Source of the DNA: Myxococcaceae bacterium
Lineage (GTDB): Bacteria > Myxococcota > Myxococcia > Myxococcales > Myxococcaceae
Assembly: GCA_019694575.1 (NCBI GenBank)
Contig: JAIBBR010000045.1
Coordinates: forward strand, 1-36,163
DNA: 36,163 bases
Direction of reading: 5' to 3'
Positions 5,322 to 28,982 of this stretch are shown piece by piece. Under the pieces are notes generated by a model. It had not been told where the DNA came from. It worked only from the letters and a program-made list of their open reading frames with translations, and did not search any database. A program made the position numbers and the translations under genes. Every line of letters starts with the position of its first letter. The stretch's first letter is position 1.

Positions 5322-5337
5322 TGTTTCACGTGGAACA
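5322..5337 (+). promoter_or_regulatory. parS: parS site 1
   Basis: TGTTTCACGTGGAACA, a 16-bp near-palindrome differing by one base from the widely conserved parS consensus TGTTTCACGTGAAACA. It lies 92 bp upstream of the parA ATG. ParB is known to nucleate at such sites and spread. Its exact reverse complement occurs at 5382-5397. Confidence 0.93.
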
Positions 5338-5381
5338 AAAGGCTCAAGGCCGCATTCACCCTTCAGCGCTGTCTGGCGAAA

Positions 5382-5397
5382 TGTTCCACGTGAAACA
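5382..5397 (-). promoter_or_regulatory. parS: parS site 2
   Basis: TGTTCCACGTGAAACA on the plus strand, which is exactly parS site 1 read on the other strand. Centre-to-centre spacing is 60 bp, close to whole helical turns, so both sites face the same side of the DNA. It lies 40 bp from the rsmG stop codon. No other CACGTG-centred parS was found in the window by eye. Confidence 0.93.
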
Positions 5398-20193: not shown

Positions 20194-20666
20194 AGCCCGC
20201 CTGCACTGTTGAAGTGCGGTGGCTTCGCTCTATCAACGCGCTCAGGCATTGCTCGCCATTGCCGCATTCACCATCACCGCGCTCAGTTTGATGCCCACGC
20301 CTGCTCAGTAGCTCCTTGTGGAAAGCGCTGTGTGTTTCTTCGTGGGTCTTGCTGCCACATGTGGACAAACCACGCATGCAGCGCACAGCTGGCTGAATCG
20401 TTTGGAAAACCCGGCATCTTTCCACAGCGCGAGCATTTGTAAGCGCTTGGCTGATCAACTGCTTTTCGGCTTCTCCACAACTTTTGCGCCACTACTGCTT
20501 TCTCTATTGATTGACCTGAATTCTTTCACACCGTCATTACAGAAGAAGAGCTGTTGAAAACCGTGCCACGAAAAGGCGGAGCACAGGAACTAGAGCACCT
20601 ACACGAAACGATGAGACGATTCGGTTTGGTCGTTCACGCTTAAGCATCAACTTCAGGGAGAAGGTG
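20194..20666. other. Second DnaA-box region downstream of dnaA
   Basis: No gene. It contains four DnaA-like boxes: TGTGGAAAG (20317-20325), TGTGGACAA (20360-20368, one mismatch), CTTTCCACA (20418-20426) and TTCTCCACA (20471-20479, one mismatch), so two in each orientation, plus another TGTTGAAAA near 20552. The stretch 20480-20560 is comparatively AT-rich. This would be the second half of a bipartite origin of the kind known in Bacillus and Helicobacter, where boxes flank dnaA. Confidence 0.5.
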
Positions 20667-22847
20667 ATGCGTCTCATTCTGGCTGTAGCCACGTTGCTGG
20701 TGGCGTCGTCAGGTTGTCGAGAAGAAAAACTCGCGGCGGCGAGCGGGACAGTGGAGCTTTCTCCGACCCACTTCGACTTTGGCTCGGTCTATTCAGGCCA
20801 GTCGAGCACGATTGCGCTGCGAATTCGCAATGACAACCGCTTCACTGTTCCTCTGCAATGGTCGCTGCCCCAAGGGCCGTTTACGGCCTCTGACTTACCG
20901 GCCACCGCTAAAATGGGGCTCACCGAAGTGGTGCTGACCTTCGCGCCGCAAGGCGTGGGGAGCTTCGGAGGGATGATCAGCCTCGTCCCCGAAGGCTTCG
21001 AACCATTGCAAAGCTTTGTTTCAGGCACCGCCGTTGAGACGCCCGTTTGCCCGCAACTCGACGGTTGCACCCGAGCCGTCTTCGACCTTGCTCAAAACAA
21101 ATGCCTTGAAGTTGCACTGCCCGAAGGGAGCAGCTGCCAAGCCGCCACCGCTTGCATCGAAAATGGCGTCTGCGTGGCCGGCCGCTGCGTGGGAAAAGAA
21201 AAGAACTGCGACGATGGCAATGCCTGCACCATCGACGTGTGTAACGCCACGCTGGGTTGTGAGCATCTGCCGCGCCCTCCGTGCCCCGGTGACGGCAAGT
21301 GCGGCGTGGGCGTGTGCAACCCGGCAAATGGCTGTGAATTGGCTCCCGCGGCTGATGGCACCGCTTGCGGCCCGCAACAAACGTGCGACGCGGCGCAAGT
21401 GTGCATCGCCGGTGACTGCGTGGTGAGAGACCCGCCCGATGGTTACGTGTGTGCGCAGGCTTCTCCCTGCCAAGGCGAAGGGCGTTGCGTAGGCTCGGTG
21501 TGCAGCAGACCTGCTCCGTCGGTTTTACAACCCAGCTGGAGCTACGATTCGGTAGGTCCAGTGGCGCCTGACGGCAGCAGCACCGCAGAAGAGCTGCATG
21601 ACTTCGTGCTCGAGCCTTCAGGGGCGATGTCGCTCTCGGGCTTTTTTCGCAGTGCGCCCAAGCTGCGCATCAACACGCCGGAATCGAGCCAGGCCCAAGG
21701 GCCGGTGCGCCGCTGCATGTTGTGGGGCAACCGGTATATTTGCGCTGACTACCCCGCTGAAGTGAATGGCAAGGTGAGCGCGCTCAGCCTCAGCACGGCT
21801 GAAACGGTGTGGACCTTCGATTTGCGCGTGGCCCGGCCTGACCTGAACGCGATGACCCAGTCGCTCTTCATGGCACGCATGGCGGTGATGGGCAGCGACC
21901 GGCTGGCGGCGCTCTTCGAGGCGTACCCAAAAACGGGCTCGGGCTCGACGACGACACAATGCCGCCGCTACTTTTTGGTGGTGCTCAATGCCAAGGGCGA
22001 GTTGATCAGCGCTTCACCCGTGGTCGACCCCGTGCTCGACGAGTGCAACCACCCCCACCCCTATGGCTTTGGCGCTGACGCGATGGGCAACTTGTACATT
22101 TCGTTTTCGCCCACCATCACCCAGCCTGCGCCGTTGGTGCCCGGCTCGCCCACCATGGTGATGAGCTACACGAAAGATGGCATTTTTCGCTGGAAGTTCA
22201 TCGACCACGACTTGAAAGGCGGCGAGCTGGCGGTGGCGGGCGGCTTGCTCTACCCCGAGAACAGCCCCATGGCGGTGTTGAGCGCCACTGGCAAACCGGC
22301 TTTCGCGCTCGATGAAGCTTACGGGCGGGCGGTCATTACCAAAGAACGCACCGTGGTGGCCCCACGGGTGGGCTCAATGAGTGTCAATGGCTATGAGTCA
22401 GGGCTCAACACCCAGCGCTGGTTACACACGCTCAGCGCAGGGCAGTACTTCGTGTCAGACCAAATTCGCTTGGCGCAATGGGCGACCCGTTCGGGCCCGC
22501 GCAGCGTAGCGCTCACCTTCGTGGGTGATTTACTCACCAGCGACTATCAGCTGCATGCCATCGACACCCGCGACGGCAGCGAGGCATTTAGCTGCTCGAT
22601 GAGCTCGCCGTTTCGCACGCCTCCGCAAATGTTCGAAGTCGGTACCGGCATGATGGGCGTGATGGAAGGCTCGAATACCTGCGGCAAGTGCGACCCGCCG
22701 TTCGCTTCGAGCAGCGCCGCGTTTCACACGTTTACGCTGCCGCTCATCGACTTGGCCCAAGAGCCTTGGCTGGGCGCTTTCGGCGGAGCGGGGCACGATC
22801 ACCGTGAAGAAGTGCTCGCGCCCCAGGGTGAACCGGGGCTGCACTAG
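20667..22847 (+). CDS. Large lipoprotein with ASH and Cys-rich repeats
   Basis: 726 residues from ATG 20667, with GGAGAAGG six bases upstream (a GTG lies just before it). Signal MRLILAVATLLVASSGC gives a probable lipid-attached Cys. Residues about 25-120 form an ASH/immunoglobulin-like domain (VELSPTHFDFGSVYSGQSS, typical DUF1573/CDRP style). About 125-285 is Cys-rich with myxobacterial-style repeats (CDDGNACTIDVCN, CGVGVCNPANGCE). The remaining 430 residues look like a beta-propeller or PQQ-type fold (repeated GxxYIS, TKDGIFRWKF, IDTRDGSEAF). Proteins of this layout are abundant on the surface of myxobacteria and mostly unstudied. Its role is unknown; it is co-oriented with dnaA and follows the box region. 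It meets the minus-strand HTH relic at its stop codon. Confidence 0.8.
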   Translation: MRLILAVATLLVASSGCREEKLAAASGTVELSPTHFDFGSVYSGQSSTIALRIRNDNRFTVPLQWSLPQGPFTASDLPATAKMGLTEVVLTFAPQGVGSFGGMISLVPEGFEPLQSFVSGTAVETPVCPQLDGCTRAVFDLAQNKCLEVALPEGSSCQAATACIENGVCVAGRCVGKEKNCDDGNACTIDVCNATLGCEHLPRPPCPGDGKCGVGVCNPANGCELAPAADGTACGPQQTCDAAQVCIAGDCVVRDPPDGYVCAQASPCQGEGRCVGSVCSRPAPSVLQPSWSYDSVGPVAPDGSSTAEELHDFVLEPSGAMSLSGFFRSAPKLRINTPESSQAQGPVRRCMLWGNRYICADYPAEVNGKVSALSLSTAETVWTFDLRVARPDLNAMTQSLFMARMAVMGSDRLAALFEAYPKTGSGSTTTQCRRYFLVVLNAKGELISASPVVDPVLDECNHPHPYGFGADAMGNLYISFSPTITQPAPLVPGSPTMVMSYTKDGIFRWKFIDHDLKGGELAVAGGLLYPENSPMAVLSATGKPAFALDEAYGRAVITKERTVVAPRVGSMSVNGYESGLNTQRWLHTLSAGQYFVSDQIRLAQWATRSGPRSVALTFVGDLLTSDYQLHAIDTRDGSEAFSCSMSSPFRTPPQMFEVGTGMMGVMEGSNTCGKCDPPFASSSAAFHTFTLPLIDLAQEPWLGAFGGAGHDHREEVLAPQGEPGLH

Positions 22848-26197: not shown

Positions 26198-26458
26198 TCA
26201 ACTGCTCACTTTGAGCTTGGCGCCCTTCATGAGAGCCGTCATGCGCAAGGTGCGACCGATGAGCTCAACCAAGCCACCGTGCTTCACCAAACCTTCAGAA
26301 ATGTCGAACAGCTCTTGCGCGGTGTAACGGTCACGCACTTGTAAGTTGGCATTAAAGAGCGCGCCCTTCACCAAGGCTTCTGCTTCAGACTGCCCCTTGT
26401 GACGGGCCAGCCGCGCCGTGATGTCTGCGATGACGCTGTCGATTTGCGTTTCGCTCAT
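26198..26458 (-). CDS. Small helical protein of unknown function
   Basis: 86 residues, mostly helical (IDSVIADITARLARHKGQSE, FDISEGLVKHGGLVELIG), no signal or membrane segment and not recognised. Preceded by a very G-rich ribosome-binding site (GGGGGGAA) that lies inside a predicted RNA fold (26463-26540). It lies 109 bp after the kinase at 26568 on the same strand and could be made from that transcript. The good ribosome-binding site and structured leader support it being real. Confidence 0.6.
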   Translation of the reverse strand: MSETQIDSVIADITARLARHKGQSEAEALVKGALFNANLQVRDRYTAQELFDISEGLVKHGGLVELIGRTLRMTALMKGAKLKVSS

Positions 26459-26462
26459 GAAA

Positions 26463-26540
26463 GTGAATTTCCCCCCGAAGGCGACATGGCTTCTAGTCGC
26501 TCTTCATTGCCTGGAAAACCTCCAGTTTCAGGAAATTCAC
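26463..26540 (-). ncRNA. Cloverleaf-like cis-regulatory RNA (predicted)
   Basis: GTGAATTTCC (26463-26472) and GGAAATTCAC (26531-26540) are exact reverse complements and would close a 10-bp helix in the minus-strand transcript. Inside it two further hairpins form: GCGAC (26481-26485) with GTCGC (26496-26500), and CTGGA (26511-26515) with TCCAG (26521-26525). The closing helix contains part of the GGGGGGAA ribosome-binding site of the gene at 26198-26458, so folding should hide it. It resembles no riboswitch I can name; it could be a thermometer, a protein-binding leader or only a transcript-end structure of the kinase gene. Confidence 0.45.
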
Positions 26541-26567: not shown

Positions 26568-28982
26568 CTACAGGTCTTCGAGGTCGACCCGCAGCGACTT
26601 CGTTTCGTTGGCCCGCATTTCAAAGGTCAACGACTTTGATTCTCCGTTGGGGCCTTTGAATTTCAAAGTCTGCTTGCCCACGGGTATGCGCGCCTTCACC
26701 AGCGGGGTGGTGCCCAATTCGCGCCCGTTGTGAATCACCACCACGCCCGAAGGCTCGGTAGCGAGCGTCAAGTCGCCGAACGCCTTGCCGGGTACCACCA
26801 TGTCTTCGAGCTCAGACTCATTGTCGGCGGTCTCGGCTTTTTTCGGTGCGCGTACTTTGCGCACGGGCGCAGGCGCGCTTTTGACGGGGGCCTTCGCCAC
26901 GGGGGGGGTAGCTCCTTCGGTCGGCGGGGGCACCGGCGCCACCGCCGCCGGAGCCGGAGGAGCCACTTCCGCCGCGACGACGGGTACGACTGCTTTTTCT
27001 ACCGGTTTTTCTACCGGGCTCTCTATAGCCTTGGGCGCAGGCTTGGAGCCAAATGCCTTGTTGGGCTGACGCGCCTTGCTCGAGTTGCTGTAGACAGTGG
27101 TGTCGAGCGTGACTTCGGGCGGGTTGGTGGTGCTGCTGAAGAAGCCAATGCGCAGCACCGCCATTATCAACAGCAGCACCGCGAGCACGACGGCGCCCAC
27201 CGCCGCCACCGTCACGGGGTTGAAGCGCGGCTGGTATTGGTGAGTCACCACGTCTGACGCTGTTTTCGGCTCGGCGTCGAGGTGAGAAGGGGTGGCCGGC
27301 TGGGGGGGGAAAGGCAACGCCAGCGTCGTTTTCAAGCCCGGGCTGTCGTCTTCGTCGTCAGGCGTAGGTTCGGTGATTTTCGGCTGTGCGGGCTGGGTGG
27401 GCCGCGCGCCCGGCATTGAAGGCCGTGCCAGGGGCGTGAGCATTTGCGACGAAGGCGGCACCAACACCGGTGACTGGCCATCAGCGGTGATGGCTTCATG
27501 CGCGGGCGAATTGCGCTGAGGGCCCACCGGGCTCACGTCGGCGATGACTGTTTTCACTCCGACGTCATTCTCGTCGTCGTCGAGCAAGTCGTCGCTTGGG
27601 GTTGCAAAGCTCGAAGAGGGGGCGGTGACTTCTTTGGTCGATTCTCCCGCGCTGTAGTTGGCCTGCAGCTGCGGTGGAATGGTGGTCACCACGGGGGTCA
27701 CCAAACGCTCTTGGTTTTGCAGCGCCCGCAACGCCGGAGGGGGTGAAATGCCAGGCGTCGAAGGTTTTTTGTGCAGCGCACCCCCGGGCGCCGGCGTGGC
27801 TTGTCGTGGAAAAGGGGCTGGGTGGCTGGCCACTGGCGGCGGCACCGAAGCGCGTGCAGGCACAGGGGGCGACGGAGCGGGTGGCGCGCTGACCTTGGGC
27901 GGCGGCGTGGCCAAGCGCAGTGGGTTGGCGGGCGGCCGGGTTTGCATCGCGAGCAACTTGTCGATGCGAATTTCGCCCGACGGGTCACCCGAGGCCTGGG
28001 CTTGTTCGATGAGACCGCGGGTCTGCTCGCGGCGGTCAGTGAAATAACGCTGCACCAAATCGCCGATTTGCTCGGGGTGCCACATCATGCCCGCGCCGGC
28101 CTTTTCGATGGCCCGGGCAAATTCGAGCGCGGTACCAAAGCGGTCGTCACGGTGACGACGCAAGGCCTTGAGCACCACGGCGTCGACCGCCGCGGGAATG
28201 AGGCTGTTCTGCTTCGAGGGCGGCGCCACCTCTTCGCGCAGCGCCGCGAGCATGCCTTCTTCGGCGTTTTTGCCGTGAAAAAGCCGCATGCCCGTCAAGC
28301 ACTCGTGCATCACCACACCGAGCGAGAAAATGTCACTGCGCGGGTCGAGCTCTTCGCCGCGAATCTGCTCGGGAGACATGTAGCCGCTGGTACCCTTGAC
28401 CATGCCCACGGTGGTGCGGTGCGCGCCGCCCACGGCTTTGGCGATGCCGAAGTCGAGCAGCTTGGTGGTGCCCTCGTACGTCACCATGATGTTTTTTTCG
28501 GCCACGTCGCGGTGAATCACCACTTTGCGGCGGCCGCGGGGGTCGGTGAAGCTGTGGGCGTAATGCAGGGCCAGGGCGGTGTCGCGCACCGCGGTGAGGG
28601 TGAGCCCGACGGGTATGGGCTCTTTGGCTTGGCGGCAGGCCCGGGCCATTTCAACCAGCGTGCAGCCCTGCACGAATTCCATCGCCAGAAAGAGCGTGCC
28701 TTCGTCGACGTCGAGGTCGAAGACTTGAGCGATGTTGGGGTGGTTGAACGCGGCGGTGGTTTTCGCCTCGTCTAAAAACATGCGTACGAATTCTTCTTCA
28801 CCGCGAATGTCGGGAAGAATCGACTTCAGCACCACGACTTTGCGAAAACCGGCCAAGCCCTTTTGGTACGCGAGAAAAATCTCTGACATGCCGCCCGCCG
28901 ACAAGCGGCACAGCACCTCGTACTTACCCAGAGTTCGGCGATCGAACGCCGAGCTCGGAGCGATGAAGGGAGCGAGAGCCAT
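26568..28982 (-). CDS. Hanks-type Ser/Thr kinase with PEGA domain
   Basis: 804 residues. Kinase domain about 20-290: glycine loop LSAGGMSE, catalytic Lys53 (VVLKSIL), HRDVAEKN (157-164) and DFG (177-179), then MSPEQ; the loop reads HRDVAEKN instead of the usual HRDVSPQN but keeps Asp and Asn. A long Pro-rich, probably disordered linker (about 340-585) leads to one TM helix (about 588-612, VAAVGAVVLAVLLLIMAVL) and a periplasmic part, Lys/Pro/Ala-rich and ending in a PEGA domain (about 740-804, TEPSGVVVIHNGRELGTTPL). Such kinases sense envelope or wall signals and phosphorylate cytoplasmic targets; many exist in myxobacteria. ATG start without a strong ribosome-binding site. It diverges from nothing nearby and precedes the small gene with the folded leader. 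Confidence 0.92.
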   Translation of the reverse strand: MALAPFIAPSSAFDRRTLGKYEVLCRLSAGGMSEIFLAYQKGLAGFRKVVVLKSILPDIRGEEEFVRMFLDEAKTTAAFNHPNIAQVFDLDVDEGTLFLAMEFVQGCTLVEMARACRQAKEPIPVGLTLTAVRDTALALHYAHSFTDPRGRRKVVIHRDVAEKNIMVTYEGTTKLLDFGIAKAVGGAHRTTVGMVKGTSGYMSPEQIRGEELDPRSDIFSLGVVMHECLTGMRLFHGKNAEEGMLAALREEVAPPSKQNSLIPAAVDAVVLKALRRHRDDRFGTALEFARAIEKAGAGMMWHPEQIGDLVQRYFTDRREQTRGLIEQAQASGDPSGEIRIDKLLAMQTRPPANPLRLATPPPKVSAPPAPSPPVPARASVPPPVASHPAPFPRQATPAPGGALHKKPSTPGISPPPALRALQNQERLVTPVVTTIPPQLQANYSAGESTKEVTAPSSSFATPSDDLLDDDENDVGVKTVIADVSPVGPQRNSPAHEAITADGQSPVLVPPSSQMLTPLARPSMPGARPTQPAQPKITEPTPDDEDDSPGLKTTLALPFPPQPATPSHLDAEPKTASDVVTHQYQPRFNPVTVAAVGAVVLAVLLLIMAVLRIGFFSSTTNPPEVTLDTTVYSNSSKARQPNKAFGSKPAPKAIESPVEKPVEKAVVPVVAAEVAPPAPAAVAPVPPPTEGATPPVAKAPVKSAPAPVRKVRAPKKAETADNESELEDMVVPGKAFGDLTLATEPSGVVVIHNGRELGTTPLVKARIPVGKQTLKFKGPNGESKSLTFEMRANETKSLRVDLEDL

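Follow-up and report, generated by a model that had tools for sequence, protein, structure and literature searches.

The genes for a Ser/Thr protein kinase and for a small protein of 86 aa lie one after the other on the minus strand of a 36,163-nt stretch of DNA from a Myxococcaceae bacterium (the whole stretch is called the window below). The gap of 109 nt between them contains a perfect 10-bp inverted repeat with a spacer of 58 nt, and an original prediction interpreted this region as a structured leader which can hide the ribosome-binding site of the small gene. Does such a structure form in the transcript, does it influence translation, and could it have arisen by chance?

Layout of the gap and the predicted fold

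The relevant features are listed in the direction of transcription:

26568..28982, minus strand: upstream gene, Ser/Thr protein kinase with a PEGA domain
26531..26540, minus strand: outer stem, 5' arm, GTGAATTTCC (sequence and fold)
26511..26525, minus strand: hairpin 1, CUGGA-GGUUU-UCCAG, 5 pairs (minimum-energy fold)
26493..26507, minus strand: mini-ORF MKSD*, 11 nt after GGAGG
26477..26505, minus strand: hairpin 2, GAAG.GCGAC / GUCGC CUUC, 9 pairs and one bulged base (minimum-energy fold)
26471..26476, minus strand: GGGGGG, candidate ribosome-binding site, ending 12 nt before the ATG
26463..26472, minus strand: outer stem, 3' arm, GGAAATTCAC, including the final two G of GGGGGG (sequence and fold)
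26455..26487, minus strand: mini-ORF MSPSGGNSLS*, 10 codons, its stop overlapping the start of the small gene as ATGA
26198..26458, minus strand: small gene, 86 aa, predicted four-helix protein of no known family

From purK onward the genes are co-directional, with short gaps or overlaps between them. A terminator-like site was not found in the gap and the outer stem is not followed by a T run, which led us to reject a terminator. We infer that the kinase gene and the small gene are cotranscribed. Between the kinase stop codon and the outer stem lie approximately 26 nt, and ribosomes terminating on the kinase gene probably do not reach the stem.

The minimum-energy fold of the 78 nt from 26463 to 26540 consists of the outer stem enclosing both hairpins. 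Thus, the predicted 10-bp repeat around two hairpins is present in the sequence as well as in the fold. The two hairpins had been described as having 5 bp each; this is correct for CUGGA/UCCAG, while GCGAC/GUCGC is lengthened by GAAG/CUUC to 9 pairs. Within hairpin 1 lies GGAGGU (26518-26523), which of all sites in the gap best matches the anti-Shine-Dalgarno sequence. The plus strand of the same piece folds similarly, as expected for an inverted repeat. When transcripts of this region were modelled, the closing stem had a mean probability of 0.83-1.0 in 22 of 24 cases, and of only 0.44 and 0.62 in the remaining two.

Access to the start of the small gene and chance expectation

That the 3' arm contains a part of the ribosome-binding site was borne out: two of the six G are located in the arm, and a third is able to pair by wobble. 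Across all 24 modelled transcripts the six G have a mean unpaired probability of 0.32-0.38. For positions -20 to -5 relative to the start codon the value is 0.16, which makes this the least open of 14 gene starts compared in the window; the others, putative starts taken from open reading frames, have values of 0.27-0.58. The suggestion that the fold lowers access to the ribosome-binding region is therefore partly supported by the in silico data. The stronger statement that pairing of the arm would block translation goes too far, since the arm comprises just two of the six G, and in many of the modelled contexts the AUG remains open. Moreover, a spacing of 12 nt between a G run and the ATG is longer than usual, and GGGGGG may thus be a weak ribosome-binding site in any case.

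At the scale of the window the outer repeat alone is unremarkable, since three perfect repeats with arms of 10 bp or more and a spacer of 40-70 nt were observed vs. 1.9 +- 1.6 in dinucleotide shuffles. When the 109-nt gap itself was shuffled, a stem of at least 10 bp was present in 0.45% of the shuffles, and a stem with two inner 5-bp hairpins in 0.005% (1 in 20,000); the nested form was absent from all 60 shuffles of the whole window. The definitions used in these stem and nested-form tests were set post hoc, after the feature had been seen, and the rarity is therefore overstated. The folding energy of the 78-nt piece corresponds to z -3.5 (200 shuffles). In a sliding-window scan with 25 shuffles per window, which gives rougher estimates, its z was -3.1 and it ranked approximately 19th among about 1,200 windows of equal length. 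The gap as a whole does not stand out in folding energy (z -1.1 to -1.6). The statistics support the view that the nested arrangement is unusual for this gap; they do not support the original judgement that it is unlikely by chance when applied to a genome scan.

The family of the small gene and conservation of the leader

Neither Pfam nor NCBIfam contains a family that matches the 86-aa protein. A paralogue with 41% identity is encoded elsewhere in the genome (G000:C159:67020-67277, L051), and 26198-26458 is thus a real gene. Its predicted structure is a four-helix protein with a mean pLDDT of 88, based on an alignment of only four sequences, and a fold search of the PDB with this model revealed nothing significant. 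No close homologues were found in the genome, viral-contig, phage and plasmid collections scanned, and no other genome of the source genus was among the scan results. Distant relatives do exist. A profile built on four sequences, of which two are from the genus g26, detected members in seven genomes of g26, with E values of 1e-25 or better. It also gave one weaker member from a different family of the order (E 7e-8), besides some marginal matches. The gene upstream of the small gene varies: it encodes the PEGA-domain kinase in the window, a protoglobin at the locus of the paralogue and, in the single g26 genome inspected, a PAS-domain protein. We note that this small four-helix family, whose members include loci L039-L046, is as a whole absent from Pfam and NCBIfam and is found beside varied genes.

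In the g26 genomes there is no leader, because the upstream gene runs up to or into the start of the small gene (mostly an ATGA overlap). In the order-level relative the two genes are about 9 nt apart. The paralogue starts about 31 nt after its neighbour, and upstream of it perfect stems do not exceed 5 bp. One g26 genome (G078, L042) harbours an unrelated, G+C-rich stem of 9 bp inside the upstream coding sequence, with a 3' arm ending just before the start codon and an unremarkable fold (z -1.7). In the other g26 genomes the stem at that place has at most 5-8 bp, showing that the stem of G078 is not conserved even within the genus. At the DNA level the gap has no match elsewhere, apart from fragments of 25-30 nt that match the end of the kinase gene. 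These were rejected as relatives of the gap, because inspection showed that they correspond to the kinase-gene end in unrelated contexts. Judged by sequence comparison, the leader is conserved in none of the relatives found (only 24-41% identical). The paralogue and these distant relatives have the gene and lack the pairing, an outcome that the original prediction itself had named as refuting it.

The leader also has no counterpart among the RNA families of Rfam: no covariance model of Rfam 15 matched it at or above the gathering score, in agreement with the earlier statement that no known riboswitch class fits. The only two Rfam matches up to E 10 are outside the leader and on the opposite strand. 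A tRNA-like cloverleaf was rejected, since none was found by ARAGORN. The element is present in a single copy in the genome, and for this reason a mobile repeat (a MITE or a REP-like, transposon-derived element) was also rejected.

Possible roles of the stem

The reading which we favour, although we put it at slightly less than an even chance, is that of a lineage-specific intercistronic stem which lowers or couples translation of the small gene. On a common transcript of the kinase gene and the small gene, the gap would form a three-way junction closed by a stem of 10-12 bp, the 3' arm of which would cover the downstream edge of the G-rich ribosome-binding region. Independent initiation on the small gene would be constantly lowered by this stem, and ribosomes opening it, for example while translating the overlapping mini-ORF MSPSGGNSLS*, would relieve this effect. 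Neither a ligand nor a regulator is part of the proposal. It is favoured by the probability of the stem, the least open start, the low frequency of such stems in shuffled gaps, the co-directional genes, the lack of a terminator-like site in the gap, and the mini-ORF stop on the start codon. It is weakened by the lack of conservation of the leader, the ordinary energy of the whole gap, the location of most G outside of the arm, the two transcripts with a lower stem probability, and the ease with which an overlapping mini-ORF arises: an overlapping ORF of at least 4 codons was found in 23% of shuffled gaps.

Both MSPSGGNSLS* and MKSD* may be due to chance. A comparable, CsrA-controlled arrangement is described in PMC5574718 for E. 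coli iraD: its ribosome-binding site is sequestered in a structure, and its expression requires a short ORF that overlaps the start codon. As described there for iraD, a structure is predicted over the ribosome-binding region in our case, and the stop of a short ORF overlaps the start codon. In contrast to iraD, where coupling was shown experimentally and is CsrA-regulated (PMC5574718), the mini-ORF of the window is predicted, and a CsrA gene was not found in the source genome, which is 99% complete. Control by CsrA was rejected on this basis. MSPSGGNSLS* is a candidate for translational coupling to the small gene, and this is a suggestion only, because the CsrA gene was not found and because of the frequency of overlaps in shuffled gaps. 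An elaborate relay, in which the three-way junction, MKSD* and MSPSGGNSLS* would act together in a lineage-specific leader and the stem would be opened by translating ribosomes upon some signal, appears highly improbable.

The main competitor of an intercistronic stem acting on translation is a functionless inverted repeat which arose by chance in a non-coding gap. We consider this a serious alternative, nearly as likely as a function: about two repeats of such length and spacing are expected per window, about 18 windows fold equally well or better relative to their shuffles, and the element is single-copy and not conserved in the relatives found. Against mere chance speak the rarity of the nested two-hairpin form in gap shuffles and the position at the ribosome-binding region of the least open of the 14 starts. 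Alternatively, the stem could act in mRNA stability or processing by shielding the kinase message from 3' exonucleases, and could thereby set the ratio of the two products. A stable fold starting shortly after the kinase stop codon would suit such a role, but the element has no other copy in the genome, and we regard this explanation as unlikely.

Some riboswitches use a three-way junction to hide a ribosome-binding site, and the general layout found here, a closing stem with two inner hairpins, is the same. This junction, with a part of the ribosome-binding region in its closing stem, would suit a leader that senses a ligand or a protein, be it riboswitch-like or autoregulatory. The element of the gap differs from those riboswitches in having neither family match, conservation nor ligand, and in being single-copy. 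Since it has no Rfam match, the CsrA gene was not found, the relatives have no conserved leader and the downstream gene belongs to no known family, sensing is very improbable, and a riboswitch-like role or a new riboswitch class is unsupported. The element looks ordinary, because it is single-copy, not common to the related genes, and nothing shows sensing.

If real, the intercistronic stem would be a further case of an operon-internal structure tuning the translation of a downstream gene, a principle that is well known. It would mainly help to understand a small protein family, so far unstudied, which is located next to different genes.

Elsewhere in the window, and separate from the leader, a longer perfect inverted repeat with 16-bp arms and a 44-nt spacer is located at 5322-5397. 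Further, the open reading frame at 20664-22847 (727 aa) matches the Dictyostelium CTDC repeat and a HYDIN-like Ig domain, both weakly.
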